Shown one piece after another: positions 6,067 through 27,877 of a stretch of 56,278 nt of DNA. Under the pieces are notes generated by a model. That model was not told where the DNA came from and made no database searches. It was given only the letters and a program-made list of their open reading frames with translations. The position numbers were made by a program, and so were the translations under genes. Location: positions 1-56,278 of IMG/VR virus record IMGVR_UViG_3300003323_000592; one strand, 5' to 3'. The stretch is from a virus. Positions within the stretch are counted from its first letter, which is position 1; each line of letters opens with the position of its first letter.

Positions 6067-6794
6067 ATATGAACTTTGGAATCAGAACTCCTGGTGGCGC
6101 TGGTGGTGCGGCGAGTTTAACGCCGGGCCCAGTGAACTTCTTCAACCCGGCGTACGGCGGCGTGCCCACGGTGCCAAATCCGGTCGTCACCGCCGCGTCG
6201 GCCAATGCAGGCAATTACGCGAACCTGCCGGGATTGGAAAGTACTGCCGCCAGCCTGAACACGTTCAATCAGGGACAGCTGCTCGGCCAGTACAACATGG
6301 CCATCCCAAATTACGCAGCCCTCACTCAGACCGCGAGTGGAAATGCGATGCAGGATTTGGAAGGAAAGGTTCCTCAGGATGTTATTAGCCAGCTCCTACA
6401 AGGCGCGGCCGAGCGAGGCATTACTGGTGGCTCGCCAGCCAGCCCAAACGCCAACGCCGCATACCTCCGGGCTCTAGGCCTCACCTCTCTCGGTCAGCAG
6501 GCTACCGGAATGCAGGACCTGCATCAGCTCAGCGCCGATGCGCCGATCGCCAAACCATTTGACCCGGCCAGCATGTTCGTTACTCCGGAGCAGGAACAGG
6601 AAGCCCAGATGGCAGCGAACCTTTATGCCTCAGCGCCGGTGCCCGCCGCTGCCGCCCAGAACGCTGAAGCACTGGCCACTCCTCCGGATAAATCAGGCCT
6701 GCCATGGTGGGCTCGTTCCTCCGGTATGCCGACCGCCCTAGGGCCGGGCTCTTATTTGACGGGCAATACGTGGCATACCCCTGCATCCATCTGA
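6063..6794 (+). CDS. Gly/Ala/Pro-rich virion-module protein of unknown function
   Basis: 243 residues, low complexity, rich in Gly, Ala, Pro and Asn, with no cysteine, signal or membrane segment. The start overlaps the previous stop (ATTGAATATG). It ends 3 nt before the next gene, inside the tail/ejection module. Small low-complexity proteins next to the large ejection protein are often internal core proteins, but nothing in the sequence proves this. Confidence 0.6.
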   Translation: MNMNFGIRTPGGAGGAASLTPGPVNFFNPAYGGVPTVPNPVVTAASANAGNYANLPGLESTAASLNTFNQGQLLGQYNMAIPNYAALTQTASGNAMQDLEGKVPQDVISQLLQGAAERGITGGSPASPNANAAYLRALGLTSLGQQATGMQDLHQLSADAPIAKPFDPASMFVTPEQEQEAQMAANLYASAPVPAAAAQNAEALATPPDKSGLPWWARSSGMPTALGPGSYLTGNTWHTPASI

Positions 6795-6797
6795 CGT

Positions 6798-7694
6798 ATG
6801 GCGAATTATCCAATTCCACCATGGCTTAACCCAGCTGCCGCCCAAGGCTACGGATCGCTGGTAGGTGAAGCGCAGCGCACGGCACTCAGCAATCAAATGC
6901 AGCGGGATGAACTGTCCCAGCGGGCAACCCAATTTGCCATCGAGAGCCAGCAACGCGCTCAGGAAACCGCAGCCCAAAATGCCGCACGTCAGGAGCAACT
7001 CAACTACGAGCATCAGCTGGAGCAGCAGAAAATTGCCATTGACCAGGCATATAAACAGCAGCAGGTGGGACTTCAAGCTGCCGATCTGGATCTTGCACAG
7101 AAGCAGTTCGAGGCAAAGACGCAGGACGCGGCGAAGAGGTTTAGCGCTAATCAGGCGTTCCAGAAAGCCATTCTTCCCAAGGATCAAGGCGGGGAAGGGC
7201 TCACCACCACCCAGGCGGCGCTCAAGTACATGGCCCCCTACATGACCGGCACCGAGCTGGGCCGTCTGGCGGCGCTTCCAGGAGATTTCAAACCAGGAAA
7301 CACCTTCGCGATTCCTGGCGCAGCTAATGAATCATTGGTGCAAGTTAGTCCAACTCGATGGGAAAAGTATGCCACGATTCCTCAGACGATTACCAACCCT
7401 CCGACCGCCATACCCGTACCAGACCCGGAAGGTAATACGATCGGTCACCTCATCCAAATTCCAGGGCAAAAACCAATCTACGAGCGTAACACAGAGACCG
7501 GCAATGACCTTGCCAGTATTGTGAAGAAGCGCCAGCAGGAACAGTCTGCTCCAGACAAAAAGTCAACCGCGGTTGACCCGAGCAAAGATCGTAAGGCTCA
7601 AGGCGGTTACAAGATTGGCATTGTTTACAAAGGCGGCCTGAAGTATTTGGGGGGAGACCCGAACAAAGAATCGAGTTGGGAGAAAGTAAAGTGA
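6798..7694 (+). CDS. Gln/Ala-rich coiled-coil protein, possible internal virion protein
   Basis: 298 residues. Residues about 25-115 are almost entirely Gln/Ala/Glu/Lys heptad-like helix, a long coiled coil. A short globular part and a charged tail follow. The 16-bp palindrome at 7562 encodes S-T-A-V-D in the C-terminal linker. It is followed directly by the 1,881-residue putative ejection protein, which starts with GTG 2 nt after this stop, so a role in the internal core is plausible. Confidence 0.6.
   Translation: MANYPIPPWLNPAAAQGYGSLVGEAQRTALSNQMQRDELSQRATQFAIESQQRAQETAAQNAARQEQLNYEHQLEQQKIAIDQAYKQQQVGLQAADLDLAQKQFEAKTQDAAKRFSANQAFQKAILPKDQGGEGLTTTQAALKYMAPYMTGTELGRLAALPGDFKPGNTFAIPGAANESLVQVSPTRWEKYATIPQTITNPPTAIPVPDPEGNTIGHLIQIPGQKPIYERNTETGNDLASIVKKRQQEQSAPDKKSTAVDPSKDRKAQGGYKIGIVYKGGLKYLGGDPNKESSWEKVK
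7562..7577. repeat. 16-bp palindrome, copy 2
   Basis: Exact GTCAACCGCGGTTGAC, read K-S-T-A-V-D-P in the C-terminal linker of the coiled-coil protein. Confidence 0.95.
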
Positions 7695-7695
7695 C

Positions 7696-10600
7696 GTGGC
7701 ATTCCAGCCTCCAGCAGTTGATGAGATCGAACAAGAGCAGCCGAAGTTTATCCCTCCGGCTGCTGATGAATTTGACCCTCTCCAGAACGTCAAGCTGACC
7801 GATTACGACAAGTACAAGCTGGCAGTCGCCCACGGCCAGCCACCGGAAAACTTCGCTGAGCTTGGCATACCCGCCAGCCTCAACCCAGACTACGACATCG
7901 TGCGCGAGGGAGGAGCTGTTCCGGGTCTTTCCAGCGCTCTCAAATTCTTCAGCGACAAAGTTATTGAACCGGCGGCAGCGCAGGTTTTTACTGGATTGAA
8001 GCGATCCACCGCTGCCGATGTTCCAGTCCGTGAGGATAAAAAGGGTGGAGGAGCTGTCGCGCTATACACTCCACCAGTGGAGCCGGGTAAGCCAATGCTA
8101 AGTCTACCGCGGTTGACCCCTGAGGAATTGGAAGGCGCTACGTCTGGTGAGAAGATCGCTGCCGGCATCGGTGAGGGGCTGGCGGGAACCATCGAGAGTT
8201 TTACCACTCCCGGCAACGTTGCAACACTGCCTTTTGCAGAACTGAAACCAGTTCAAGCTTACTTTGGTGCACAGATGGCTGCGTCAGTTCCTGAAGCGCT
8301 TAAGGCCATCGGTGACGCCAAAGACCCGCAGGAGACAGCGCGCGCCTACACGTCGCTGGCGGCAAACCTTGGAATGGGGGCGCTCCTCGCCCATTCCGAA
8401 TTCAAAGAAGGAGGCTCCAGTGCCAGCCAAATTAAAGAAGCAGCAACGGTTCATGGCGATGTGCGCTCACAACCCATCGATGTCGAAGCGCAAGTGTCCC
8501 CCGCGGAAAGTAGCCCAGGAGTTCAGTCACGGCCCACGCAAGAAGCCCAAGTTCCACTGAGCGACGAGCATTCCAAGCTGTTGGCGCAGCACATGACAGA
8601 GGAAGGGCATTCGTTTGGAAAACTTAGGGAAGGCGCGGTAATGCTGGCCGACCACGACACAGGCCAAGTCATCGTTGACCCTGAGCAATTCTCAAAGTGG
8701 GTTGACCGTGACCTGAAAGACCTATCCCCCGAAGAGAAGAAGGATGCAGTGCGCTCGGCGTTCGAGCATGAGGATATCCATCTCAAGACTGACCCGGACG
8801 ATGCTGAGCCGTTCTGGGAGTCGATGTCACCCTTCGAGCAATACGTACTGAAGCGCCAATATCTCAAGGGTCAGGACGCCTCCAAGTTTTCACCAGCTCA
8901 GCTTGGCTTTGAGGCGATTCGCAACCGCATAGAACGCGCGATGGGAATGACTCGCAGCGACTTCGTTGGACTCGCTCTGCATGAACGCTGGACTGCTCAG
9001 GCTTTGGACCACCTTGCCCACATTGTAGGCAAAATTCGCAGCCTTAAGGACAGTGAGTTGAGCGAGCATCAGAAATCCATCCTCGATAAAGTGCGCGAGA
9101 ACATTAACTCCGCCCGGGATGCAGTCGTATCTGGAGCTGGCGCAGCGGTTGCTGAACAGCCGTTTATGACTCGTCGTGCTGATGGCACCCCTGAAGATGA
9201 TTTAAATAGTCCGTTGCCTCCACTGATGCCGGATGAGCGTGTGGTGCTGATTCGCCGCCCCGATGGTTCTGTCTACCGTGCGTCCTACTCAGGCAAGCAA
9301 TACGACGTTAGCGCAGGCGGAAAGGCCATGATTGAGAAGTATGGCGGCTCCAAAGTGGATTCGATTGGCAGGGTGGATGAACGCGGCCAATGGTCGCATG
9401 GCCTATTGAAACCTGGAGAGAAAATCATAAAAGGCTTCAGTCCGTTCGCGGCGGTGGAGCGATCGGGAGAACCGGAAGGCCCAGCTATGCTCCGTAAAAA
9501 AGGCAAGCCGGGTGAGCAAGAGGAGCTGTTTGGAGCCATGACTGCTCGTGGGGTTCCTGGTGAAGAAACTATTCCCCTTCAAGAAAGGGCGTCAGCAGCC
9601 CAGGCAGGGGCGAAAGAGGTGGCTCCAGAGCAAAAGATTTTTCCCAAAGATATTGGGTTTGACCAGCCTGGACGGGAGATGACCGTGCGTCCCATCTCGT
9701 CTGACGAGGCGTCGAGTCCGGAGGAATTGAATAAGTTCCTGACCAGTGGCGCTCGCAGTGGCGGTTCAGAGCTGCCGGTATCTGCCACCAAACGCATCAC
9801 CGCGCTGTTTGATAAAACGGATGGATCGGTGCATTTGGTATCGACTTACAAAGGCGACAATGTCACCCGGATAGTGGACCCGGAAATTGCCGGCAAAGAG
9901 CGCAACAGCCGGCCTATTGCTGACTTGCTGCATCGGTATACGCCTTTTGCTTCCATTTTGCTGAGCGAGCCACGCCAGGGGTTTCATCAGAAATTCATGT
10001 CGATGGCCGATTACCAGCAAGCGTTCGGAGACGAGGCTGCCACGCTGGTGCGAGAACATGGAACTGGAACTGAGGGAATCCCTATGACGCGTGTGGGTGC
10101 GCTTCCGGAAGTGGAAGTGGAATATCCCGTGGAGCCCGGCAAAGAATCCTCAGAGTCGTTCTTGTATCCTCAGGAGCGGGAACCCAATCTGCCCCGTCCA
10201 ACCGAGCAGGAGTTGAAGGATTTTCACAATTTCTTTGGCGACACTCCACCCTCCGACGCCACGATGTTCAGTCGTAAGATTGAGCGGGAAGCTGCGACCG
10301 CCAGTCGGTCCATGATTAACGGCCTGAGAAAGCTGGTGGCCATGGAGCAGGCCCAAACCAAAGGGTTGAGTGAAGGTGAGGCACTGGGAAGAGTTCTGGA
10401 TAAACTTTATGAAAACTACAGTAACAGCGACACCCGCAGCGACTTCATCCAAAGGACGATGGAGCAAGGCAGTTACGGCGCTCCTAAAGAGGTTCCGCCA
10501 GGAGGAAAGCCAAGAGAGACAGGAGCCCGGGAGCTTACCACCCTCCGCAGCCGTGCCCCCACCAGCACCACCCAAGGCCGCATCCGTAAGCTAAGCCCAA

Positions 10601-15032: not shown

Positions 15033-17699
15033 TTACAATAGTTCTTCGGCGATTACTGGTTTACTGACTGGTCGTTTCCATCCGTTGTTTCGGAGATTAT
15101 CGATGAGGACTTTGGCCTCCTTGGCGGGCAGCTCGGCCGCGTTCGCGTAGCCCGCTCGTTTGAGCACGTCGGCCTGACGTGGTGTGGCCTTTCGGTCCTT
15201 CAGGCGCTTGCATAGCTCGACAAAGAGCTGCTTGGCTTGCGTGTAGGGATACTGAGAAGCGTTGATGCCGAAGCGAGCCATCAGGTTCACCTGCGACTCG
15301 GACAGTTTCTTTCCCATGTCGAACGGCTTGGGCTTGGTGGGAACCAGGTCGAGCGCATCGAAGGGGTTGATCTCGATCTTGGTGTACTTCGAGCGGGCCA
15401 CCAGCTTCACGCGCCGGGCCTCGGCCTCGCGCTTGGTGCGCTCGATGCGTTTGCGAATCTCCTCCTCCGATTCTTCCAGCACCTCCATGACATCCATCGC
15501 CTCGCCCTTCTTCTCCATTTTCTTCTTCGCGAGTTTCAGGGCGCGGTCGCTGACCTTACCGCCAAGAATGTCAGCCACGGTGATTAGCTTGTGGTTGCCG
15601 GAGTTACCCACGAAGTCGAGCACGGTGCAGCTCGGTTTCTCGGACTGGGCGATGAGTTTGCAGCGCGAACCTGAGTCCACGCAGTCGTTGAGCAGTCGTG
15701 CGATGGAGTCGGCGGGACGCAGGCCACGGCCGGCGAACTGGGTGTAGAGACTCCGGCTTTTTGTAGCGCGGCCCATGATGAGCAGCTCCACGGCGGGGTT
15801 ATCAAATCCCTCGCCGCAGATGCCGACATTGACCAGCACCTGCAACGCACCAGATTTGAAGTCCTTGAGGATAACCTTCCGCTCTTCGCGCGAAACTTTG
15901 TCCCAGATGGCCGTGGACATGCCGCTGACCACCCGGTTCAGAACCTCCGAGAAACGCTGGGCCTGCTTGATGCTCGTGCAGAACACGAGCGTCCGGCGTG
16001 GCTTGCCTTTCCGGCGCAGCACCTGCCCCCAGTCCTCGACTGGGGCGAAGTCCAGATACCGGTCAGGTAAACTCCACGAGGCTTCCAGGGTGGGCTGAAT
16101 CATGCGTTGAACCGTCTCTTCTTCTTCGAGCACGGCTGAGAGTTGTCCGAGGTTGAGATCCCCGGCGGTGGTGGAGATGTGGGAGTAGTCAAGCCCTTCC
16201 ACCGGGACGTAGTGCTGTTTGATGGGGACGAGCCAGCCTTCGCCGATGCCCGCCAGAATGTCCATCTTGTAGGCTGTTGTCTGGAACAGCTGCTTGAGAG
16301 CTTCTTCGTCAGATCGGTCAGGGGTGGCGGTGAACCCCACAACCTTGAGTCGAGGATTTTGCTGAAAGTAGCGGACCACCTTGAGGTAGGAGGGAGCGAC
16401 CCAGTGATGGCAGTTATGGACGAGCACGCCATCAGCGAAGTAATTGTGGTTGTCCTCTACTTCAATATTGTAGACAAAACCATCTGGACACAGCCCTCCA
16501 AATTTTCCATCACTTCCTGGTTCGAGAAACGTAACACTTTCCACCCTATCGACTGTAAAAAATCGACCTTCTTGCTGTCCTGTTGCCTCCTGGTCGCCGC
16601 AGAATGTGAACGACCATCTATTTCCACCCCGATCTTTAATTGAGGATGGCCAACATCCAGCTTGTAGCAGGTTGGATAACCCGAATCTCTCGGCATACTC
16701 GTTTTCACCACGACATTGGTGCTCCAAGATAACGCGGCGGCAAGTGCCGCCTCGGTGCTTGTTGGACCTTTCCCATTTCCACCCCGAGAAATAGGCTGGT
16801 GGCCAATCCGTCGTAGCGTGGCGGCCATCTTCTTGCGAGTGATCGGTTGGAACATAGGGTTGCGGTAGGTCATCCTCTGGGATGCGTATTTTCGATTTGT
16901 TCTCGCCATAGTCGATGACGACTCCCTTGATCGCATTGCGCGCGCGCAGGAGTGGGAACAGAACAGCCTCTTTCCAGACGAGACTCGAAAGCGTTCGTAT
17001 TTTGTCTTTGGTGTGACGACTCCTCCACATTCGCAGCATTTCAGGCTCATTAGTGATGAGTCTAAACACCACTGAGTTGCTTGTCAATGCGTGAGCGGGA
17101 ACGTAACCACCAACTCCGATACTGAATATCGGATGGCTGTTGGTAGTGACCATCGTGTGCCCCGAGGCAAACGCCACCCTCACCATACAGTGAGGCTTTG
17201 ATTTGAAGGTGGCGACGACCTTCTTAGGCTCGATGGTTTTTCCCATTGACCTCACCGTGTCTCCTTTTTTGAGCTGTTCGATTGGAATGCCGTCCACCAG
17301 CGTCCCCGCAGGAAAGCACTCGTCAAGGAACATATAATCGAAGTCTGTCGGCCTAAAGTTCGCCATGCGTCCATCCCCACCATTGCCTGAGTATTGGGTT
17401 TGAACGGTGCCGATCACAACTTGCTCTTTCGAGAAAACACCGTAATCAGCTTTGAGGTCTGCCATCTCAATCCCAACCTTAACGCCGGCGTTCTGCTCAA
17501 TCGTGTCCCTTGCCTGGTAAACTAGGGTGTCTCGATGGCATAAAAAAAGGCACCGGCTAGGCTGCACCCTACGTATCAGCTCGGCGGTGATACGGGTCTT
17601 GCCAAGCCCGGTCGCTAGCACATTGATTGTCGACATGACCCCTTTGTCAAACTCGGCCAGTGTTGCTGCCACGCAGTCGTCCTGATAAGGGCGAATCAC
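15033..17699 (-). CDS. DEAD/H-box helicase (SF2) interrupted by an intein
   Basis: The 888-residue precursor carries a 302-residue intein (residues 128-429). Splicing would give a helicase of about 586 residues. Seen: Q-motif-like start, Walker A with GLGKT (31-35), FLDE (124-127) joined after splicing to CHHW (430-433) to rebuild the DECH box, GFTATP motif III, and FAGRGLRP motif VI. This is the restriction-type/UvsW-like SF2 group, likely replication or branch-migration work. Translation is coupled to the upstream gene (ATGA at 17696-17699). Because the intein splits motif II, activity must depend on splicing. Confidence 0.88.
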   Translation of the reverse strand: MIRPYQDDCVAATLAEFDKGVMSTINVLATGLGKTRITAELIRRVQPSRCLFLCHRDTLVYQARDTIEQNAGVKVGIEMADLKADYGVFSKEQVVIGTVQTQYSGNGGDGRMANFRPTDFDYMFLDECFPAGTLVDGIPIEQLKKGDTVRSMGKTIEPKKVVATFKSKPHCMVRVAFASGHTMVTTNSHPIFSIGVGGYVPAHALTSNSVVFRLITNEPEMLRMWRSRHTKDKIRTLSSLVWKEAVLFPLLRARNAIKGVVIDYGENKSKIRIPEDDLPQPYVPTDHSQEDGRHATTDWPPAYFSGWKWERSNKHRGGTCRRVILEHQCRGENEYAERFGLSNLLQAGCWPSSIKDRGGNRWSFTFCGDQEATGQQEGRFFTVDRVESVTFLEPGSDGKFGGLCPDGFVYNIEVEDNHNYFADGVLVHNCHHWVAPSYLKVVRYFQQNPRLKVVGFTATPDRSDEEALKQLFQTTAYKMDILAGIGEGWLVPIKQHYVPVEGLDYSHISTTAGDLNLGQLSAVLEEEETVQRMIQPTLEASWSLPDRYLDFAPVEDWGQVLRRKGKPRRTLVFCTSIKQAQRFSEVLNRVVSGMSTAIWDKVSREERKVILKDFKSGALQVLVNVGICGEGFDNPAVELLIMGRATKSRSLYTQFAGRGLRPADSIARLLNDCVDSGSRCKLIAQSEKPSCTVLDFVGNSGNHKLITVADILGGKVSDRALKLAKKKMEKKGEAMDVMEVLEESEEEIRKRIERTKREAEARRVKLVARSKYTKIEINPFDALDLVPTKPKPFDMGKKLSESQVNLMARFGINASQYPYTQAKQLFVELCKRLKDRKATPRQADVLKRAGYANAAELPAKEAKVLIDNLRNNGWKRPVSKPVIAEELL
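16413..17318 (-). mobile_element. Intein in the helicase DECH box
   Basis: 302 residues. It starts C-F-P-A-G-T-L-V (Cys1 codon 17316-17318) with block B HTMVTTNSHP about 50 residues later. It ends in a typical C-terminal block ending NHNYFADGVLVHN, with Asn at 16413-16415 followed by Cys+1. All splice-junction residues look intact. The middle (about residues 217-380 of the precursor) has no LAGLIDADG or other in-frame endonuclease motif. The same DNA encodes an endonuclease in another frame (16457-17050). Confidence 0.9.
16457..17050 (-). CDS. Vsr-like (EDxHD) homing endonuclease encoded out of frame inside the intein
   Basis: 197 residues, reading one base off the helicase/intein frame. Seen: a treble-clef zinc finger (C5/C8 and C31/C35), a NUMOD-like segment NPMFQPITRKKM...GHQPISRGGNG (64-93), then a nuclease core with E100, D132 (YKLDV), VEIDGRSH (142-149) and D158, ending LQSIGWKVLRFSNQEV. 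These match the EDxHD family related to Vsr and to I-Bth0305I. It occupies exactly the slot between intein splicing blocks B and F, where in-frame endonucleases normally sit, and its last codons overlap block F. No clear Shine-Dalgarno precedes the ATG at 17050. Real coding is supported by preserved motifs over the full length. Confidence 0.85.
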   Translation of the reverse strand: MSLKCCECGGVVTPKTKYERFRVSSGKRLFCSHSCARAMRSRESSSTMARTNRKYASQRMTYRNPMFQPITRKKMAATLRRIGHQPISRGGNGKGPTSTEAALAAALSWSTNVVVKTSMPRDSGYPTCYKLDVGHPQLKIGVEIDGRSHSAATRRQQDSKKVDFLQSIGWKVLRFSNQEVMENLEGCVQMVLSTILK

Positions 17700-18978: not shown

Positions 18979-19232
18979 TTGGATATTTTTCCTTTTTCCA
19001 TTGGATTGACCGGTATAGGATCCATGCACGAGTGATGACCGCAGTGAACGCAGTAACCGTTCTTGCCGCGCTTGTGCTCGCAGGCTTCGATAGATGTGCT
19101 GTTTCCGTCAATGGCCAAAACCCTTGCTGTGTGGGCAAGCTCTTCAGCACATTGATGGACCATGCCAACATTTCCACTTCTCCTGGCGGCCAATAGTTTG
19201 GTCCACGCTTCGTTGTATGCCTCTCGGTTCAT
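18975..19232 (-). CDS. Small zinc-finger-like hypothetical protein
   Basis: 85 residues from the ATG at 19232, preceded by AAAAAGGAGAACGG. The N-terminal half is helical. The C-terminal half has a metal-binding pattern: C-x-H ... C-x-x-C-x-H-H-x-C (around EACEHKRG and YCVHCGHHSC). It overlaps its neighbours by 4 nt on both sides. No family recognised. Confidence 0.65.
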   Translation of the reverse strand: MNREAYNEAWTKLLAARRSGNVGMVHQCAEELAHTARVLAIDGNSTSIEACEHKRGKNGYCVHCGHHSCMDPIPVNPMEKGKISK

Positions 19233-20086
19233 AGTCCGTTCTCCTTTTTCCATAGCTTGAATTGCTCGCAGAACTGCGAGACTGAGCAGTAGTTTTCGCA
19301 GCGTGGCCGCTCAGCCGGCCGCACTTCGATCTCGAATTGCGAGGGGTTGGGTTGGCTGGCCATCCACTGGCCAGCCTCCAGCTTCGAGTCGAGCACCCGG
19401 CTGGCTTTCTTGTTACCCTTCTTCATCACCGCGTAACGCTCCGGTCGCTCCCACATTTCCTCGGGGGTACATTCTGGCAGGGCCCCACTGCGGGCATTCT
19501 CGTGAAGAGCGATACGTTTGCGAAGCCAGGATTCCACGGCTTCCTTTGGCCAGATGAGCGACTTAAGGACAACCACCTGTGATTGCGGCAGCTCGGGATT
19601 GCGGCTCGCCTCACTCACATTCCAATCCCGTAGGATGGCAATGATTTTGAGTTCCTTCACCGTAACGCCGTACTGGTCAGCCATGTACTTGTAGACGTTC
19701 AGCTGCTGCTCCCACTCCGGCTTGATGCCGTCCTTGATGGCCCAGAGCGAGACGAACTTGTAATCGATGATGGACTGCTCACTCACGGCGTAATCCAGCT
19801 GTCCAGACACCTTGTAACCGTCGAAGTCCACAACGCACCGCTCTTCCACAATGCCGCCATCCGATGCTCTGCGTAGCACTTCGTGGCCGGCCTTCCCCAT
19901 AAGCAGCCACAGACGGTCGCTGGCATCCTCTTCCAATTGGTCGGCGTATTTGAGTTCAAGAGCCGCTATGCGTGGTGGTTTTATTAACTCGGTTACTGAA
20001 TAATCGGCACCACCCTTGTCGTAATTGTCGTGAGTGACCGCTCGGACCAGTGGTTCTGGAAGTCCTTGGGTGTTTGTTATACGCAT
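19229..20086 (-). CDS. RecB/Cas4-like PD-(D/E)XK exonuclease
   Basis: 285 residues from the ATG at 20086, chosen because AAAGGACAG lies just upstream. Seen: GKAGHEVLRRA (motif I His), SGQLDYAV (catalytic Asp), IIDYKFVS (D-x-K) and a C-terminal Cys cluster CENYCSVSQFC that may bind an Fe-S cluster, as in Cas4 or AddB relatives. It most likely resects DNA for the Rad52-like annealing protein encoded two genes upstream, forming a two-component recombination pair. The annealing partnership is inference from gene content. Confidence 0.75.
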   Translation of the reverse strand: MRITNTQGLPEPLVRAVTHDNYDKGGADYSVTELIKPPRIAALELKYADQLEEDASDRLWLLMGKAGHEVLRRASDGGIVEERCVVDFDGYKVSGQLDYAVSEQSIIDYKFVSLWAIKDGIKPEWEQQLNVYKYMADQYGVTVKELKIIAILRDWNVSEASRNPELPQSQVVVLKSLIWPKEAVESWLRKRIALHENARSGALPECTPEEMWERPERYAVMKKGNKKASRVLDSKLEAGQWMASQPNPSQFEIEVRPAERPRCENYCSVSQFCEQFKLWKKENGL

Positions 20087-21129
20087 GATTCTGTCCTTTC
20101 TGTTTTCGCTCCGACCAACATTGGTCGAATCCAAATTACTTTTGATTGTCGTTTTGATTTATCCTCGAAGCGGGGTCCGATAGGCTGGTGTCGCCAATGA
20201 CCGCGGCGAGGATGCAGTCGTGGGCTGGCGTGCGTTCCCTGTGACGCGCCACTCTCTCGCAGCCAGGTGTATTTCCGGCCGATGAAGTTGGGCGACCACA
20301 GTTCTGACTTCACCACCACACCGTTACGTAGCTTCGGTGGGCGCAGCATGAACTCGTGCTCGATTTGCTCCGGCACCGCGTTCATGGCGAGCAGCAGGTG
20401 ACCACAGAGAGCAATCACCTTTTTAATCAGCTTCATGTCCTCGACCGTATTGGTCTGCGCCACGATTTCCATTTCCTTGGCCGACTCAGGATCGACACAG
20501 AAGTCCTGGTAGCGCTGGTCAGTCATCATCTTGTGCAGCGTGTCGAGGTCACTGAAGCTGCCCGAGTAATCCACCGGCTTGTCGTCATACATCGCGGTGA
20601 ACGTGATGATGAAGGCCTTCTCACCGTACGCGTCGGCTGAGATGCCGAAGGTGGGTGCCCATGGGTAGAACTTCTTCACCCGCTCAGGCGCCGGCTGTGG
20701 ACCAGTTTCTTGCAGAGCCATCCTGACGAACGGCACATGCACGCCGAGGTAATCCATCTGAAACTTCTCCGGCAGCATGAAGCACATGCCGTCAAACGGC
20801 CATTGCAGCTCCCGGATGGTGAGGTTCTCTGGTGGCTCGGTCTGCACAAGCGACTCCGCGAAGTCCTGTCCGACAAAGAACGTCGGAACCAGGTTCTTCA
20901 GGATTTGCCACGCGCACAGGATGCAATCCACTTCCACCTTGTTCGGGTGCGGGTTGTCCATGAAGTGCATGTAGACTTCGAGCAGTGCCGAGTTCCAGCG
21001 CGGGTTTGCGTAGCCCTGAGGAGGCACATAACGGCGAGGATAAACCAGCTTCCATACACTCTCTCCCGCCTCGTCCTCAATCATCTGCGCCGTCGCCTCC
21101 AGCATTGCGAAGCGTTGGCTATTGTTCAC
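20077..21129 (-). CDS. AcrVA2-like protein
   Basis: 350 residues. The C-terminal 60 residues (HASPRLHPRRGHWRHQPIGP, then a Lys/Arg stretch and VIWIRPMLVGAK) match what I recall of the Moraxella anti-CRISPR AcrVA2, which ends with a similar H-x-R-R-G-H-W block followed by a W-x-P beta strand. The N-terminal part is helical, with a conserved-looking AWQILKNL helix. AcrVA2 lowers Cas12a by acting on its mRNA during translation; most AcrVA2-like relatives are untested. It lies between the Rad52-like and RecB-like genes. It overlaps the nuclease start by 10 nt and a small upstream gene by 4 nt. Confidence 0.65.
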   Translation of the reverse strand: MNNSQRFAMLEATAQMIEDEAGESVWKLVYPRRYVPPQGYANPRWNSALLEVYMHFMDNPHPNKVEVDCILCAWQILKNLVPTFFVGQDFAESLVQTEPPENLTIRELQWPFDGMCFMLPEKFQMDYLGVHVPFVRMALQETGPQPAPERVKKFYPWAPTFGISADAYGEKAFIITFTAMYDDKPVDYSGSFSDLDTLHKMMTDQRYQDFCVDPESAKEMEIVAQTNTVEDMKLIKKVIALCGHLLLAMNAVPEQIEHEFMLRPPKLRNGVVVKSELWSPNFIGRKYTWLRESGASQGTHASPRLHPRRGHWRHQPIGPRFEDKSKRQSKVIWIRPMLVGAKTERTESCV

Positions 21130-21329
21130 AACATATCCTCCAAGCGAATCGTGCCGTCGAACACCTGCCAGTTAATGTTGTTGGCGCTGACTCCCTGCCG
21201 CTCACACCACTCATCCACCGCCTCTTCGGCATCGGATTGAACCCCGGCGTTTGACTGAGACTCAGAGATGCAGTTGGGGAGGATGTGCACCGTGCCCTTT
21301 TCCCCGTTGAGTATTGCTATCGATTTCAT
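21126..21329 (-). CDS. Small acidic hypothetical protein
   Basis: 67 residues from the ATG at 21329, which has AAAGGACAG directly upstream. It is acidic (many Glu/Asp) with a short beta start (SIAILNGEKGTVHIL) and a helical middle. It overlaps the AcrVA2-like gene by 4 nt and probably shares its translation. An accessory or inhibitor protein is possible; no family recognised. Confidence 0.6.
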   Translation of the reverse strand: MKSIAILNGEKGTVHILPNCISESQSNAGVQSDAEEAVDEWCERQGVSANNINWQVFDGTIRLEDML

Positions 21330-21344
21330 CTGTCCTTTGGTTGA

Positions 21345-21373
21345 GCCAGCCACCGTGGTCAGCGATGGCTGGC
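21345..21373 (-). other. Intergenic hairpin after the Rad52-like gene
   Basis: An 8-bp stem (GCCAGCCA/TGGCTGGC) with a 13-nt loop lies between the Rad52-like stop and the next leader. It has no U-run, so it is more likely an mRNA processing or stability element than a terminator. Confidence 0.45.
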
Positions 21374-21379
21374 GATTGA

Positions 21380-22567
21380 TTATTCTGCTGACTCCTTCGT
21401 CCAGCCGTAGTGAACGCCCGCGGCGTCCAGCATCCGGCGAAACTCCTCATCCTTGGCGATCGACTCAGCTTTCTTTGGCTGGCCGTTGTACTCGCGCTCG
21501 ACCTCGTAGTTCATCACGAGGCCGTAGAGGTAGTTCTTCTCCAGCTCGGCGAGCGGGATGTCCTTGTTGCGACCCCACGGCATCAGATACTTCCGCCATG
21601 GCTCTTCTTCCCCAGCTGGCGGCTGCGTGACGAACGCCTCGACTTGAGCAAAGAGGTCGTCGGCTGCCTTTTTAGTGGTCGGAACGTATTTCAACGGCAG
21701 GTCGGCAAGTTTTGCCTCTGGCGTGTTGGGTATCCACCCCTTCGACTGGAAGAATCGCAGGGCATAATCGGCATTGGTGCCCGGGAACAGGGCGATGAAC
21801 CGATTTCGCTGGTCCTCGGTGGCCTCCTGAGGGAGAACCTGACTCGCTGTAGCGGCCTGCCGCGTTGCGGGCTGGGGGCTAGGCCGTGCCGCAGGAGGGG
21901 GAGCGCTGCTCTGGGACCCTCCAAACGCTCCACGGGGCGGCTGGGAGCCTCTTGGACCTCGGTTACGCTCCTTCCACCCCTCACACCATCCCTTCATCCA
22001 AGCCTGCAATCCGACCCCAAACTCCTTGCAGCACCGCCTGAATGCATTCGATTTGGCTGATTCCAAGGCGTCCGAGTAGTTGGATTTAGCGTTATCGGGG
22101 TAATAAACCGCGTCCCCAATGGCCTCACCTACCACACAGCCACGGGCAATAAGGACCACGTCGGCGTAAACTTTCACGGCCTTTTTCTCCCGGTTGTCCT
22201 TCCAGTAGGTAAATTCTTCCGCCCACTCGCGTCGGCGGATGGGGACAACCGCCCCCACACCCAGCACTTTGTTCAAGCGCTGCCGTAGGTATGCGTGCTC
22301 GATGTAAATCAACTCGTTGTCACCGCCAGCGCCTTGCCGGAATGCTTCGTCGGGGAAGTCCTCGGACAGGGCGTTGGCCTCTTCGGGTGTCAGGTTGAGT
22401 TTGGAAGCGTTGGCGTAAGCCGCACTCAGCGCGTCTGCCACCGCCTCAACCCGTGCTTGGGCTGGCGTGATGGGTTGCTGCTGTTGCTGTGCTTCTCGCA
22501 AGCGTTCGTCATTGACTGCTGGAACGGTTATTTCCGCTCCTGGGATCTGGTCATCTGGTTCATTCAT
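21380..22567 (-). CDS. Rad52-like single-strand annealing protein
   Basis: 395 residues. Residues about 85-185 carry the Rad52/22 signature: YIEHAYLRQRLNKVLG, then YADVVLIARG with GEAIGDAVY, then SAKSNAFRRCCKEFGVG. A Pro/Gln-rich low-complexity linker and a C-terminal domain (about 285-390, PWGRNKDIPLAELEKNYL) follow. That last part resembles the small domain that often follows phage nucleases and annealing proteins. Role: annealing of complementary single strands in recombination or replication. Its start overlaps the upstream nuclease stop by 4 nt. The RecB-like gene nearby is the likely exonuclease partner. Confidence 0.75.
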   Translation of the reverse strand: MNEPDDQIPGAEITVPAVNDERLREAQQQQQPITPAQARVEAVADALSAAYANASKLNLTPEEANALSEDFPDEAFRQGAGGDNELIYIEHAYLRQRLNKVLGVGAVVPIRRREWAEEFTYWKDNREKKAVKVYADVVLIARGCVVGEAIGDAVYYPDNAKSNYSDALESAKSNAFRRCCKEFGVGLQAWMKGWCEGWKERNRGPRGSQPPRGAFGGSQSSAPPPAARPSPQPATRQAATASQVLPQEATEDQRNRFIALFPGTNADYALRFFQSKGWIPNTPEAKLADLPLKYVPTTKKAADDLFAQVEAFVTQPPAGEEEPWRKYLMPWGRNKDIPLAELEKNYLYGLVMNYEVEREYNGQPKKAESIAKDEEFRRMLDAAGVHYGWTKESAE

Positions 22568-23016
22568 ATTGTTGGTCGATATTCAATCTCACCGTCCACA
22601 AACACGAGCGCCAGCAAATCGTAGGCGTCTGGGTCGTGCGGGGCAAAGACGGCTTCCCCTTTTCTGGTTCGGGTGGCGGTTGTCACCTCCACTCGAAGAA
22701 ATGTCTGCTGCTGCACTGGAAGAAGAACGTTGGGCATCATCACGATCAGGTCGCACGAACACGACTGAGAGACTGAACGAAACACGCTGTATCCACGGTT
22801 CATCAAGTCCGCGCACACCAACAGTTCGTTGATGGCGCCGCGGACTCCTGTGGAGACGGCAGGACCAACCTTCACGATTGGCTTGTAGCCATTTTTCGCG
22901 AATCGCTTTCTACATTCGACCGAGCAGAACTTTTTATTTTTCCGTTCGTGCCGGTCCATCTTGGTGCCGCAGCCCTCACAGGAGCGCTGAAACACGCCAT
23001 CAACGACCGCACTCAT
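22564..23016 (-). CDS. Zinc-finger PD-(D/E)XK-like nuclease (possible free-standing homing endonuclease)
   Basis: 150 residues from the ATG at 23016, which overlaps the upstream stop. A treble-clef finger (SCEGCG ... FCSVEC, C13/C16/C31/C35) is followed by a nuclease-like fold: E64 in GAINELLVCADLMNRG, D89 in SCSCDLIVMM and E110 in LRVEVTTATR. The usual Lys of E-x-K is replaced by Thr, so the enzyme could be inactive or use another residue. The finger is close to those of the endonucleases at 16457 and 34681, suggesting a shared module. Confidence 0.65.
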   Translation of the reverse strand: MSAVVDGVFQRSCEGCGTKMDRHERKNKKFCSVECRKRFAKNGYKPIVKVGPAVSTGVRGAINELLVCADLMNRGYSVFRSVSQSCSCDLIVMMPNVLLPVQQQTFLRVEVTTATRTRKGEAVFAPHDPDAYDLLALVFVDGEIEYRPTI

Positions 23017-23333
23017 TCTGCTAATCCTTTTTCTTCGGGGTTCTCGGGACGCTGGCGGTCGATAACGCGTTTGAAATGGGCGCGGCACTCGTCGCCGGCC
23101 TTGATGACTGCTTTGATGGCCTCACCGCACTGCGGATCTCCACACTCGCACGGCAAGGTTGAGGCTTCCTTAATCAGCTCCCACTGCTCGTCGGGGATGT
23201 TGCCCACCATGTTGACAAACACGGCGGACAAAATCACCTGCGCTTCCTGCGGGTGCATGTTCGTAAACGCTGCCGCCAGAAAGCCGCCGATGTGCGGCAG
23301 GCCTTCGGGTCCTTGCATCATTTCAATGTTCAC
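23013..23333 (-). CDS. Hypothetical protein with a CECGDPQCG cluster
   Basis: 106 residues, started by GTG at 23333, which overlaps the upstream TGA (GTGA). Helical, with a Cys pair near the middle (PCECGDPQCGEAI). The N-terminal part is rich in Met/Gly. No family recognised. It is translated with the nuclease gene it overlaps. Confidence 0.6.
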   Translation of the reverse strand: MNIEMMQGPEGLPHIGGFLAAAFTNMHPQEAQVILSAVFVNMVGNIPDEQWELIKEASTLPCECGDPQCGEAIKAVIKAGDECRAHFKRVIDRQRPENPEEKGLAE

Positions 23334-23694: not shown

Positions 23695-24888
23695 TTAGAT
23701 ACCTAATCTCCAGGCCTCCCATTGCAGGTCATCATCGATTCCACCAACGGGGCCCCTTCCATCGGCCTCTTTTCTTTTTCCGCCCTCGTTGGTTTCGGAT
23801 TTTGGGAAGGTGTGGTTCTCCTTCTCCCCACCCTTGCTTTTGTCCTCTTTCTCCTTCTGCTGCTGGAGCGCTTCTTCGACCATCGCCTTCTCCAAGTCTG
23901 GCACGCATTGACGCTCCAGATCGTCCGGGTCGACCTTGTGATGACGACAAGCCATGCAGATGATGTAAGGAGCGAAGTCCACCAGCGCCATCTCACTGAG
24001 CGCATTGCTCAAGTCATCAAGTTCAACACCTTTGTCCACGCACTTGTAGATGATTTCCTTCCACGCAGCGTCGGTCCGCTTCCACAGCGGCTCGGTCTCG
24101 GCCGAGTACATCGACGGGCACTGATGCCCACCGGTCATGCCGCCCAAAGGAATCGATCCACTGGAGCCCGTGTAGGTGGTGACAGCCGGCTTGATCTCGA
24201 TGACGTTGTCCTTCCACTGCTGGGGGAAGCTCAACTCTGTCGGTGGAGTCGTGAGCAGCCGGCGGGCCTGCTTGTTCGCCCAATCGTTCGGCAGGTAGGG
24301 CCGGAACTTCTCGGGACACTCAGCGAGTATCGGGTCGGTATCAACGAACCACGCCATGTTGAGGTTCTCATCCTTGATGACTAGCCCCTTCCGGTAGAAC
24401 CGCGCGTGAATGTCGTATTTGTCCTTGTTGGACATGTGGCCAATGGTGATGTGCAGACCATCCTGATTCTGCTCGTTGGTCTCATCCGTGCCCGACTGGA
24501 AGGCACTGGCCGAGCAGTGGTGATGCACCGTGCCGAAGGCGAACCAATCGGGTGGCTGCAATCCCAGCTCCGCGTGCTGCTTGCGCTTCTCCTCGTTGTC
24601 GAGTTCATGAGCGGTCATGCCGGTCTTGGCCTCCTGCGGATAGGCGTAGGCCTTCCACGTCTGGAGGGTGGGACTGACATAGAGCCGCACCTGGCACTCG
24701 CTGCGATACTCGTTGTAGCACCACTGGAAGAAGGAAAGGACCTCGTTCCACACATCGAGCGGGATCTTCGGGCCCTTCCAATCTATCGTTGCCTTGGTGT
24801 TCTTGATCTCATACTTCATGGTGCAGTCGAATAGACCTGCAACGGAGGCGTCATCCTCGATGAAGCCCCCTTGTACTTTCAGTTTCAT
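23695..24888 (-). CDS. JAMM/MPN-type metalloprotease of the ubiquitin-like operon
   Basis: 397 residues. H122-x-H124 followed seven residues later by S132-x-x-D135 (HHHCSASAFQSGTD) is the JAMM zinc signature, and GLHITIG follows as in MPN folds. JAMM enzymes remove or mature ubiquitin-like proteins. The C-terminal 150 residues are helical and end in a Lys/Glu/Gly-rich tail. AAAGGACAG precedes the start. It is the last gene of a set with E1, E2-like and Ubl genes, so it likely processes the Ubl or cleaves its conjugates. The upstream active-site Glu is not certain by eye. Confidence 0.75.
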   Translation of the reverse strand: MKLKVQGGFIEDDASVAGLFDCTMKYEIKNTKATIDWKGPKIPLDVWNEVLSFFQWCYNEYRSECQVRLYVSPTLQTWKAYAYPQEAKTGMTAHELDNEEKRKQHAELGLQPPDWFAFGTVHHHCSASAFQSGTDETNEQNQDGLHITIGHMSNKDKYDIHARFYRKGLVIKDENLNMAWFVDTDPILAECPEKFRPYLPNDWANKQARRLLTTPPTELSFPQQWKDNVIEIKPAVTTYTGSSGSIPLGGMTGGHQCPSMYSAETEPLWKRTDAAWKEIIYKCVDKGVELDDLSNALSEMALVDFAPYIICMACRHHKVDPDDLERQCVPDLEKAMVEEALQQQKEKEDKSKGGEKENHTFPKSETNEGGKRKEADGRGPVGGIDDDLQWEAWRLGI

Positions 24889-24917
24889 TTTCTGTCCTTT
24901 TGTTTACTGGTTGATTC

Positions 24918-25772
24918 TTATCCGTTGGGGAATAACTCAGCGAAGAGGGCGGGGTCAGCCGTCCGCAAGGCATCCTTGAGCGCGGTCTTGCCCGCGTCCT
25001 GGATGGTGATTTCGCTGTCGGTGGTCTCGTCGAACTCGTGGTCGTCGTACTCGGCCGTTCCTTCCACGTCTCTCATGGTGAGGTAGTCGCTCGGAGAATC
25101 CTCATCTATTTTTGAGGCGATTAGGTCGAAGAACTCGTCTGAATCGCTCGCTTCCGAAGCAGCTTCGATGAGCGCCTCGCGACAGACACCCATCTGCCCT
25201 CGGCCCTCGCGCGTGTTGTGGTAGGAGCAGCGTCCATGCTCACGCTCGGAAGCTACAACCTCCACCATCACCTGAGTCCGTCGGCGCTCGGCCGCTGCTG
25301 CGTTCAGCCGCTCCTGCTCAGCCTGCTGACGTTCCATTTCCAGCTCCCAAGACGACTTCGGCTTGGGGGGAATCTCGCAGTTGTACTCGATCCAATTCTT
25401 CACCTTCTCAAAGGTGTCCTCCTCCCGCGGCACCGGCACCTTGAGGTGCGCGAGCAGCAGGTTGCGGATCGTTTCGTTATTGGGTGCTGACTTCACCAGG
25501 TCAATCACGCTGCGGGGCAGGAAGTCAGTGATGTTGCACTTCTTTTTCGGAGGCGATTTGACCTCGACGGTTTTCTTGGCTCCGTCGAGTTCGACCTCCA
25601 CTTTTTTGGTGGCCATATCAGTGCTCTCCTGCGCCTGCGAGGTTGGCGACGGCGGTGGGCTCGGCGGCGTTTCGGGTGCCGCTGCTCTCTCGCTCGAGTA
25701 TCGCTGGTCCTCCGTTAGTGTCGCTTCCTCCGGGTATGGATTTCGTGGAGGCAGCGGTATTTCCTGACTCAT
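24918..25772 (-). CDS. Ubl-operon accessory protein (possible PRTRC_E analogue)
   Basis: 284 residues from the ATG at 25772, supported by AAAGGACAG 4 nt upstream. The first 52 residues are Pro-rich and share DNA with the E1 C-terminus in another frame. An alternative start (25616, MATKKVEVEL) lies just after the E1 stop. A middle helical part contains Glu/Gln/Arg-rich coiled coil and a CSYHNTREG segment. The tail is very acidic. PRTRC clusters contain an extra protein between ThiF and JAB that I cannot match by sequence. Function unknown; probably a scaffold or target adaptor. Confidence 0.65.
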   Translation of the reverse strand: MSQEIPLPPRNPYPEEATLTEDQRYSSERAAAPETPPSPPPSPTSQAQESTDMATKKVEVELDGAKKTVEVKSPPKKKCNITDFLPRSVIDLVKSAPNNETIRNLLLAHLKVPVPREEDTFEKVKNWIEYNCEIPPKPKSSWELEMERQQAEQERLNAAAAERRRTQVMVEVVASEREHGRCSYHNTREGRGQMGVCREALIEAASEASDSDEFFDLIASKIDEDSPSDYLTMRDVEGTAEYDDHEFDETTDSEITIQDAGKTALKDALRTADPALFAELFPNG

Positions 25773-26466
25773 TGTTCTGTCCTTTCGTTTCTGGTTTCAG
25801 TTTGTCTTTGATGAGGTGTGTCTCCATCCGTGTCCGGTTCGCCACGAGGCGATAGGGCAGGCTGGGGATGATTTTGGCCTTCACCGTGGGCGCGTGCAGA
25901 TGCCACAGCGCGAAGAGGTGGCCGGCCAGTGACGCCGCCAGCGAATTGCTGGTGACGAGCTGCGGGTTCTCCTTCTGGGCTTCGCCCGTGCACCCGATGC
26001 CCCGCGCTCGCGGGTCACCGCTGGTGTCGGTCAGTATGTCCGGGAAGTAGGTTCTCGGGTCAACCGCGGTTGACTTCCACTCCGGCTGGTAGAAGTACGC
26101 CTCGGCTGAGTGCGTCTCATTCGCCGCGAAGATGGCCTTGCACTGCCACCGATCGCACTCGGACAGCGCCGCGCGGCGTGCCCGGTGGTTGTCGACGCAG
26201 ACGACCAGCCAGTCGTCCTCACCGAACTCAATGAGGCTTTCAGCGAACCACTCGTTGCGGAAGAGGCAGCCGTATTTCTCAGCCAATGCCTCAGCCTTCG
26301 AGCGGCCAATGTCCTCCGGCTTGAACAGCTGCCGGTCGAGATTCTTCTCTTCCAGCGTGTCCGCGTCGATGAGGGTGATTTGACCCGGTGACGTGAGGAG
26401 GGTGAGCGCCGGGGTGAGCCAGCTGCCGACACCTCCACACCCAATGATGTAAATGTTTGACTTCAT
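25618..26466 (-). CDS. ThiF/E1-like Ubl-activating enzyme
   Basis: 282 residues. Seen: GCGGVGS nucleotide-binding loop (9-15), D35 of LIDAD, NLDRQLF (42-48) with the Arg and Gln that bind ATP, DIGRSKA (52-58), a hydrophobic VVCVDN strand (88-93), and a likely thioester Cys at C159 in GIGCTGEA. This matches E1/ThiF proteins, including the PRTRC ThiF family. It would adenylate the C-terminus of the Ubl. The 16-bp palindrome encodes S-T-A-V-D (132-136) in a loop. The C-terminal tail (about 50 residues) is low complexity and overlaps the next gene. The start is coupled to the 114-residue gene (ATGA). Confidence 0.85.
   Translation of the reverse strand: MKSNIYIIGCGGVGSWLTPALTLLTSPGQITLIDADTLEEKNLDRQLFKPEDIGRSKAEALAEKYGCLFRNEWFAESLIEFGEDDWLVVCVDNHRARRAALSECDRWQCKAIFAANETHSAEAYFYQPEWKSTAVDPRTYFPDILTDTSGDPRARGIGCTGEAQKENPQLVTSNSLAASLAGHLFALWHLHAPTVKAKIIPSLPYRLVANRTRMETHLIKDKLKPETKGQNNESGNTAASTKSIPGGSDTNGGPAILERESSGTRNAAEPTAVANLAGAGEH
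26059..26074. repeat. 16-bp palindrome, copy 5
   Basis: Exact copy, read K-S-T-A-V-D-P inside a loop of the E1-like enzyme. Confidence 0.95.
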
Positions 26467-26807
26467 ATTCCCGTCAGCTTTCTCAACACCTGCACCATTT
26501 TGTTGGCGGGTGTCACTTTGGGTTGCGTTTTAGTGAGGATGAACTGCTGTGCCTGCCCGACGATGTTGTCGAACTCGCGCACGTCAATGCCAGCCGACCG
26601 GCAATCGTCCCGGAGGACCGAGTCGAACGCCAGCAGCAGGGCTACCGTGTAGTTCTGTCGGCTGTATTGGACCGCGCGAAGAGCAAACGAGTCTTTCGGG
26701 ATCGCACTCGCCGCCGACTTCATTTTTTCCTCCAGATACTCCTTCCAGTCGAAGCTCGGAGGACTATTGAGCAGCGCCTGGTATAGTTCAGGATTTGGTA
26801 GGCTCAT
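26463..26807 (-). CDS. Small helical protein between E2-like and E1 genes
   Basis: 114 residues, mostly helical, with no cysteine-rich or membrane segment. The middle (LRAVQYSRQNYTVALLLAFDS) forms an amphipathic helix. It overlaps both neighbours by 4 nt (ATGA), so it is translated with the E2-like and E1 genes. This suggests a subunit or adaptor of the conjugation machinery. No family recognised by eye. Confidence 0.7.
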   Translation of the reverse strand: MSLPNPELYQALLNSPPSFDWKEYLEEKMKSAASAIPKDSFALRAVQYSRQNYTVALLLAFDSVLRDDCRSAGIDVREFDNIVGQAQQFILTKTQPKVTPANKMVQVLRKLTGI

Positions 26808-27553
26808 ACCTGGCAGAATTTAAGGAGTGCGGTTGATACCTTGGTGCAAAGAGTAGTCCACGGCGCCAAGATGGGTTGAGTGTGGAACTTGTTGTCCACC
26901 GATTTGAAGCGAATGAATTTCCAGATGGTGTCGCCCTGATAGAAGAGGTCGGAGTTCCACGGTGCGGTGCGGAACTGATGGATGGCCTTCTGCACAGCTT
27001 CGAGCACCGTTGGCGATGTCGAGTTGTACTGGCCCATGCAGACCTGGCACGTCTCGTAGAGATTGCCGAGCGGCAGGCGCCACGCCACACCCCGGCCATC
27101 GAAGGCGTAGAGGTAGTGGTCATGGCACAACCATTGATCGCCGTTGCTGGACGGCCGGATGAGCAGGTGGAAGCGGATACGCATGGTGGCGTCCTGCTTG
27201 AGCATGGCGTCCGCGCGGTTCCATTCCATCTCCAGAATCGGCTCGCCCGAGTCCTTGTGGGCGAACGTCGGATAGAACTGGTCCTTGTAGCCGTCGTCCT
27301 CCTTGATGGCTTTGAACGTGGTGCGGAAGTTGATGGTTTCGAGCGGCACGGAGATGTGCAGCGTGCTGTCGCTCTGCTGGTGCACAACGTGAATCGGACC
27401 GTGTCCCGGCAACTCCATGAAGTTACGCGCGGTCGTGACGACGTTGGTGGTAAATGCCTTCTGCAAGGCATCGCCGGGCTCGATCTCGGAGCGTTCGAAA
27501 TGCTCCAGAAACACGCGCCCTTGCGTATCGATTACGAATCTTGATTCATTCAT
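26804..27553 (-). CDS. E2-like protein (PRTRC_B-like) of the ubiquitin-like operon
   Basis: 249 residues. The second half has LPLGNLYETCQVCMG (160-174), then about 20 residues later TAPWNSDLFYQGD (196-208). The pattern P-L-x-N-x-y-x-x-x-x-V-C-x-G with a following F-x-x-S/D segment is what I know from PRTRC_B proteins, which Iyer, Burroughs and Aravind described as E2-like. C172 is the best candidate for the thioester Cys. The N-terminal half is beta-rich. AAAGGACAG precedes the ATG at 27553. A terminator separates it from the Ubl gene. Confidence 0.65.
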   Translation of the reverse strand: MNESRFVIDTQGRVFLEHFERSEIEPGDALQKAFTTNVVTTARNFMELPGHGPIHVVHQQSDSTLHISVPLETINFRTTFKAIKEDDGYKDQFYPTFAHKDSGEPILEMEWNRADAMLKQDATMRIRFHLLIRPSSNGDQWLCHDHYLYAFDGRGVAWRLPLGNLYETCQVCMGQYNSTSPTVLEAVQKAIHQFRTAPWNSDLFYQGDTIWKFIRFKSVDNKFHTQPILAPWTTLCTKVSTALLKFCQV

Positions 27554-27578
27554 ATTCTGTCCTTTGGTCTAAACGATT

Positions 27579-27618
27579 AAAAAGCCCCAGCCCGAGCGCT
27601 GGTTACGCCGGGCTGGGG
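27579..27618 (-). terminator. Rho-independent terminator between the Ubl and E2-like genes
   Basis: On the minus strand, stem CCCCAGCCCG/CGGGCTGGGG (10 bp, 14-nt loop) is followed by CTTTTTAA. It lies 17 nt past the Ubl stop and 25 nt before the E2-like start, well placed to make Ubl mRNA far more abundant than the enzyme mRNAs. Confidence 0.9.
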
Positions 27619-27634
27619 TGAGTGTGGCTACGGA

Positions 27635-27877
27635 TTAAGCGTGGGCGAGTTCCGCCGTGGCCTTCTTGTTGGCCGCGGTTTCAATCACCACCACCGAACC
27701 GTTCGGGACCATGGCGTCGTCGGGCATGGTGATGCCGCCAATCATCAGATTGACGTTATCGCCGTAACCCAGCTGGTCGCGCAGGTCCTGGCTGTGCCGA
27801 ATGTCTTGGATACGAATCGGCGTGTCCTGCTCGAACGATTCAGAGTCAGGTCCGTAGACTACAGTACAACGAAACAT
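27635..27877 (-). CDS. Ubiquitin-like (beta-grasp) protein, PRTRC_C-like
   Basis: 80 residues. Beta-strand pattern FRCTVVYGP, a short helix DIRHSQDLRDQLGYG, then NVNLMIGGITMPDD and VPNGSVVVIETAANKK, the usual beta-grasp ending. In phages and PRTRC clusters, proteins of this size and pattern accompany ThiF and JAB genes. The C-terminus is K-K-A-T-A-E-L-A-H-A, not Gly-Gly, so it may need trimming, may use another terminal residue, or may act by non-covalent binding. AAAGGA lies upstream of the ATG, and a strong terminator follows. Confidence 0.75.
   Translation of the reverse strand: MFRCTVVYGPDSESFEQDTPIRIQDIRHSQDLRDQLGYGDNVNLMIGGITMPDDAMVPNGSVVVIETAANKKATAELAHA

Follow-up and report, generated by a model that had tools for sequence, protein, structure and literature searches.

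A remote homologue of AcrVA2 and FinQ encoded among the recombination genes of a viral contig

What does a protein that resembles AcrVA2 do among the recombination genes of a phage? The question is raised by a protein of 350 residues encoded on the minus strand (20077..21129) of a viral contig 56,278 bases long, which is called the window here. The gene begins with GTG, preceded by GGAGGA at a gap of six bases, and the protein ends in HPRRGHWR...WIRPMLV. The original prediction pointed to an H-x-R-R-G-H-W block at the C terminus that recalls AcrVA2, and this block is present as HPRRGHW at residues 306-312 (codons 20194..20214, minus strand). AcrVA2 is reported to trigger decay of the cas12a mRNA via the nascent N terminus and is described as the first case of translation-coupled, nascent-peptide-guided mRNA decay in prokaryotes, and the same review calls the decay machinery behind it unknown (PMC13131331). 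The window protein has both features of the AcrVA2-like superfamily, whose hallmark is a C-terminal HxRRGHWR block followed by a WIxPxxV-type end. Clustered gene calls placed family members in 155 loci, the window counted, and the block is more than a chance resemblance because it recurs as the C terminus of the family at these loci and is accompanied by similarity through the rest of the protein.

The C terminus of the window protein is conserved, and the rest is variable. We hand-picked 50 of 148 viral and bacterial loci for full length and variety and aligned them with the window protein; the resulting alignment of 51 rows, A4, contains no known AcrVA2. His306, Arg308, Arg309, His311 and Trp312 are invariant in A4; when ten sequences, AcrVA2-clade members among them, are aligned, His306, Arg308, His311 and Gly318 show no variation. 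Top-residue fractions delimit a conserved C-terminal module at residues 296-342 (20104..20244, minus strand), where the mean fraction is 0.51 as compared with 0.15-0.33 across the segments of residues 1-295. Residues 296-350 are also net positive, with 12 Lys and Arg to 4 Asp and Glu, whereas the remainder is net negative (28 to 39 in residues 1-295).

The window protein matched no Pfam, NCBIfam or PADLOC family, and as a single query it found only chance ninjurin matches among the PDB sequences. Single-sequence searches were thus uninformative about AcrVA2, and family profiles were needed. The same held for the viral contigs, in which the window protein alone found no match, whereas scans with a four-sequence profile succeeded and recovered 97 relatives, of which 80 were kept, together with 68 in bacterial genomes. 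By tblastn, the window protein matched a Granulicella plasmid protein (E 1e-13, query coverage 93%) and a Gloeobacter plasmid protein (E 2e-13, query coverage 89%). The profile comparison named in advance as the check on the original prediction, in which the absence of a match to AcrVA2-like proteins would have spoken against it, gave a clear match: hhalign aligned A4 with five AcrVA2-clade phage proteins at 99.0% probability (E 3.1e-18, 220 columns). When a sixth protein was included and both sides were trimmed of the block and the sequence downstream of it, the probability was still 95% (E 3.5e-8), so that the profile match extends past the C-terminal block, and 17 unrelated neighbour families used as controls gave at most 0.8% and E values no lower than 0.065. 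The close clade of the window protein alone, likewise cut, did not reach AcrVA2 (1.8%, E 0.028), which indicates that the full-length link depends on the wider family. Searches of the PDB with the A2 and A4 profiles placed AcrVA2 (7ci1) on top, yet with E values of 1.3 and 0.086, respectively.

Other matches of the window protein lie in its C terminus, where 47 residues match phrog_6160 (E 7.4e-4) and 35 match phrog_15934 (E 0.0064). A Pasteurella phage protein matches both phrog_6160 (E 4.9e-47) and AcrVA2 (7ci1, E 3.7e-17), and phrog_6160 therefore covers AcrVA2-clade proteins. Since pairwise and small-profile matches are confined to the C terminus, one could suppose that this module, serving to bind RNA or the ribosome, is all that the window protein has in common with AcrVA2 and that its function is a different one. 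We consider this very unlikely, because the match obtained with the cut profiles and the fold comparison, which covers model residues 42-340, both argue against it.

We modelled the window protein with AlphaFold2 from A4, an input without any known AcrVA2, and obtained a model with a pLDDT of 79.9 and a pTM of 0.81. The AcrVA2 fold is present in this model. Foldseek against the PDB returned the two AcrVA2 entries, 7ci2 (E 1.2e-4) and 7ci1 (E 1.8e-4), with a probability of 1.00 and as the only chains under an E value of 0.001; the third chain had an E value of 0.72. VIA-align 2 gave Z scores of 10.5 and 10.4 for AcrVA2 over 226 and 212 residues, and the next chain had a Z score of 3.0, above which no other family was found. 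The TM-scores between the model and AcrVA2 are modest (0.37-0.43), and the r.m.s.d. is high. Among viral structure models, twelve match at E values of at most 0.001, and most of these are unnamed or uncharacterised. With the profile and the fold in agreement, the AcrVA2-like identity put forward originally stands, and we have hardly any doubt that the window protein is a true, distant homologue of AcrVA2.

A homologue need not share the activity of its relatives, and function can change over distances such as that between the window protein and AcrVA2. In a tree of 61 proteins (A4 and ten more) made with a quick method, the AcrVA2 homologue of a Moraxella phage, five other phage proteins and FinQ, the fertility inhibitor of IncI plasmids that acts on F conjugation (PMC8744291), form a clade with a support of 96. 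The window protein lies outside this clade and groups with the two plasmid proteins named above and the loci L014-L018 (support 93). The deeper branching order is unsure, given several long branches and the quick method. This position indicates that Acr activity should not be assumed for the window protein.

The immediate surroundings of the gene raise the possibility of a different role. Its end shares ten bases with an exonuclease gene (phrog_2139, E 5.9e-47), counted from the likely ATG of the latter at 20086 (19229..20086, or 19229..20134 from an earlier start; minus strand), and its start shares four bases with a gene for 75 residues (21126..21353, minus strand). Next come a single-strand-annealing protein (SSAP) of the Mgm101/Rad52 type (21380..22567, minus strand; PF06420, E 1.8e-12, over the cut-off) and a probable endonuclease with a zinc-finger-like part (22564..23088, minus strand), for which the matches are weak (phrog_5018, E 1.1e-10; PDDEXK_5, E 0.0012, below the cut-off). 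The SSAP and the exonuclease bear out the recombination cluster that had been proposed from the sequence. The operon also contains a Toprim protein and a helicase with an intein (15033-17699, minus strand), whose C-terminal splicing region matches TIGR01443 (E 8.5e-9). Within the helicase, in a different frame, we noticed a frame for 197 residues (16457-17050) that has, by eye, the look of a homing-type endonuclease.

The overlaps on both sides could mean that the window protein assists or regulates the SSAP-exonuclease module of the phage itself, for instance by tuning the expression of the operon, and is not directed against host or rival genes. A family A DNA polymerase adjoins the relative in 54 of the 80 viral loci, these belonging to an extensive environmental phage lineage, and in 54 of the 80 there is also a PD-(D/E)XK nuclease downstream, which would fit such a role. 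However, at 60% identity the polymerase-adjacent loci all fall into a single one of 16 clusters and hence represent one lineage instead of a repeated association, and the PF12705 nuclease was matched in only 5 of the 24 records tested. We dropped this neighbourhood as evidence for a role in recombination. The window exonuclease itself has no detectable relation to the PD-(D/E)XK nuclease family of the polymerase-type loci. Moreover, FinQ and the phage genes of the AcrVA2 clade have other surroundings: integrases, lysis genes or trbA are nearby. Taken together, a recombination partner is an unlikely identity for the window protein.

Upstream of the recombination genes, and on the same strand as the AcrVA2-like gene, the window carries a PRTRC-like cassette (23695-27877, minus strand). 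It encodes a JAB-like protein of 397 residues (23695..24888, minus strand; HHHCSASAFQSGTD), for which the only match is TIGR03735 PRTRC_A (E 0.013). The JAMM motif has the form HxH(x7)SxxD. The cassette further encodes a ThiF/E1-like protein (25618..26466, minus strand; TIGR03736 PRTRC_ThiF, E 5.4e-14, below the cut-off) and a probable PRTRC protein B-like, or E2-like, protein (26804..27553, minus strand). The latter is homologous to the proteins of L016 712-1404 (E 1.2e-4) and L014 1399-2097 (E 0.001), and the L014 protein matches PF14460 Prok-E2_D at an E value of 6.5e-4, below the cut-off. An 80-residue protein of the cassette is, by eye, possibly ubiquitin-like. Homologues of the JAB-like protein occur in L014, L015, L016 and L019, with which the cassette is partly syntenic, and the order ThiF, JAB-like, AcrVA2-like is kept in four near relatives. 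We considered the cassette as a partner of the AcrVA2-like gene and rejected it. In a sample of 39 of the 80 viral loci and 11 other records, ThiF was matched in 6 of the 50 records, namely the nearest-relative viral records L014, L015, L016, L018 and L019 and Moraxella phage Mcat5 (E 5.9e-4), and the ThiF family also matched 8 of 14 control genomes. The partnership is weakened further because ThiF in L018 lies far from the AcrVA2-like gene and the records may represent one broad lineage.

If not recombination, the homology to AcrVA2 might point to an anti-CRISPR or anti-defence protein that silences a Cas or other immune protein in the manner of AcrVA2. We chose 50 of the 68 cellular loci for a Cas12a test and searched 49 of these genomes, leaving out L102. 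Cas12a (TIGR04330) was over the cut-off in 0 of the 49, and one genome contained a Cas12a fragment of 51 positions; 0 of 14 control genomes matched, known Cas12a carriers not being among the genomes run. In the same 49 genomes, cas1 was found in 31, and the genomes with relatives are therefore not poor in CRISPR, though Cas12a was found in them only as the one fragment. Whereas the presence of cas1 is compatible with an anti-CRISPR role, the Cas12a result argues against it. The adjacent 75-residue gene matches no family in Pfam, PHROG or NCBIfam and so offers no hint of an acr-aca arrangement. We regard an anti-CRISPR or anti-defence protein as improbable. The original prediction also held that most relatives occur where Cas12a is absent. 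This agrees with the cellular genomes, to which our counts refer as carriers of relatives, whereas the phage hosts of which the prediction spoke lie outside the sample.

For the predicted extension to other nascent peptides, FinQ is informative, because this family member has a phenotype unrelated to Cas. By sequence comparison, FinQ of IncI plasmids is an AcrVA2 homologue. The finQ frame of plasmid R621a (L162, NC_015965.1) spans 5397-6491 on the minus strand with 364 codons; NC_015965.1 annotates a shorter frame (5397-6176), and the homology spans the longer one. FinQ alone found 7ci1 in the PDB by phmmer (E 1.8e-16), a profile of six AcrVA2-clade proteins matched FinQ over residues 13-351 (E 6.5e-52), and the window-family profile matched it with an E value of 2.1e-9, while the other frames in the 20-kb stretch around finQ gave 1.3 or worse. 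One Erwinia phage relative is annotated as 'putative protein FinQ'. A FinQ-like gene was found in 550 plasmid records; in 501 of them it is at least 99% identical, and 518 are typed as conjugative. In ColIb-P9 (NC_002122.1), finQ is annotated in neither half, and the first half, when searched with an HMM, contained no member of the family.

Reportedly, FinQ interrupts tra transcription at multiple sites by 'Rho-independent termination' (PMC8744291); the sequence that we compared is the R621a copy, whereas the experiments concern the R820a protein. As FinQ is a homologue of AcrVA2, nascent-chain-triggered mRNA decay offers a testable explanation of how FinQ may work. If so, what looks like termination at many sites would in fact be the decay of transcripts under translation. 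FinQ supports the idea that the family has targets beyond Cas12a, a support that falls short of a demonstration. Among the papers searched, a set that excluded preprints and most subscription papers, none treats FinQ together with AcrVA2 or anti-CRISPR. The link is therefore new to the searched literature and may have been mentioned elsewhere, whereas uncharacterised structural relatives of AcrVA2 are already in print: 342 hits have been reported, and 273 of the 273 described ones are uncharacterised (PMC12230656). AcrVA2-like proteins have also been noted in huge phages (PMC7162821).

Relatives occur in diverse settings. In Mu-like elements (L097 3559-7587 and L056 2425-6334), the AcrVA2-like gene is flanked by genes for a Mu-type transposase on one side and an AAA ATPase on the other. 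In the Alphaproteobacteria loci L124 (724-7848), L133 (413-7585) and L136 (409-6141), it directly follows SIR2, HerA and an RNase T/DEDDh exonuclease, and L119 (1-3399) is a partial locus of this kind; SIR2 and HerA are strong PADLOC matches in L133, on which the neighbour families were tested. The AcrVA2-like protein of these loci, of about 460 residues, is a family member within a defence-type operon, and in L119, L124 and L133 a CoiA-nuclease/DUF6035-like protein comes after it. Chromosomal relatives of 576-662 residues with the same C-terminal block (L114 4666-6396, L118 4393-6144 and L143 4204-6192) may correspond to the published two-domain AcrVA2-like structural case (PMC12230656). The Gloeobacter plasmid (L006) has two adjacent members (5932-6999 and 7602-8024), the second of which is a frame for 140 residues with an AcrVA2-clade-type C terminus, HVRRAHWHGFW, and is perhaps a remnant. 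In our judgement, such varied settings speak more for a silencing tool whose targets change than for one fixed role.

We favour, with a probability of roughly one half, the reading that the window gene, a divergent AcrVA2/FinQ-superfamily member carried in the early replication/recombination operon of the phage, acts by AcrVA2-like silencing on a target that is probably not Cas12a. By analogy with AcrVA2, from which we infer both nascent-peptide recognition and mRNA decay, the variable middle part may recognise a short stretch of one specific protein as it leaves the ribosome, and the conserved, positively charged C-terminal module (HxRRGHWR...WIxP) would trigger the destruction of the mRNA under translation. 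This division of labour between two parts of the protein is a guess on our side, as is the kind of target, which would probably be some protein of the host or of a rival element whose synthesis the phage must stop.

Compared with known systems, the window protein resembles AcrVA2 (PDB 7ci1/7ci2) in its fold, C-terminal HxRRGHW block, WxxP-type end and overall length. In contrast, the two have about 12% identity over the structural alignment and belong to different clades, and the window protein shows no link to Cas12a and is encoded in a recombination operon. The similarity to phrog_6160 and phrog_15934 is weak and limited to the C terminus. With FinQ (R621a, NC_015965.1), the window protein has in common the superfamily, the C-terminal block and carriage by a mobile element unrelated to Cas12a; however, FinQ groups with AcrVA2, which the window protein does not, and has its target within the F tra operon. 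Tentatively, and with more doubt than confidence, we suggest that AcrVA2, FinQ and the window protein are parts of one large mobile-element family that silences chosen genes by reading a nascent peptide and then destroying its mRNA. FinQ 'termination' would then be decay, and the window branch would be the phage-replication-operon version with a host target of its own. If the family were this general, phages and plasmids would possess a gene-silencing fold directed at many targets, while FinQ would provide a second, classical and easily assayed E. coli system in which to find the decay machinery. The chief value of the window protein in this comparison is that it ties the phage and plasmid branches of the family together.
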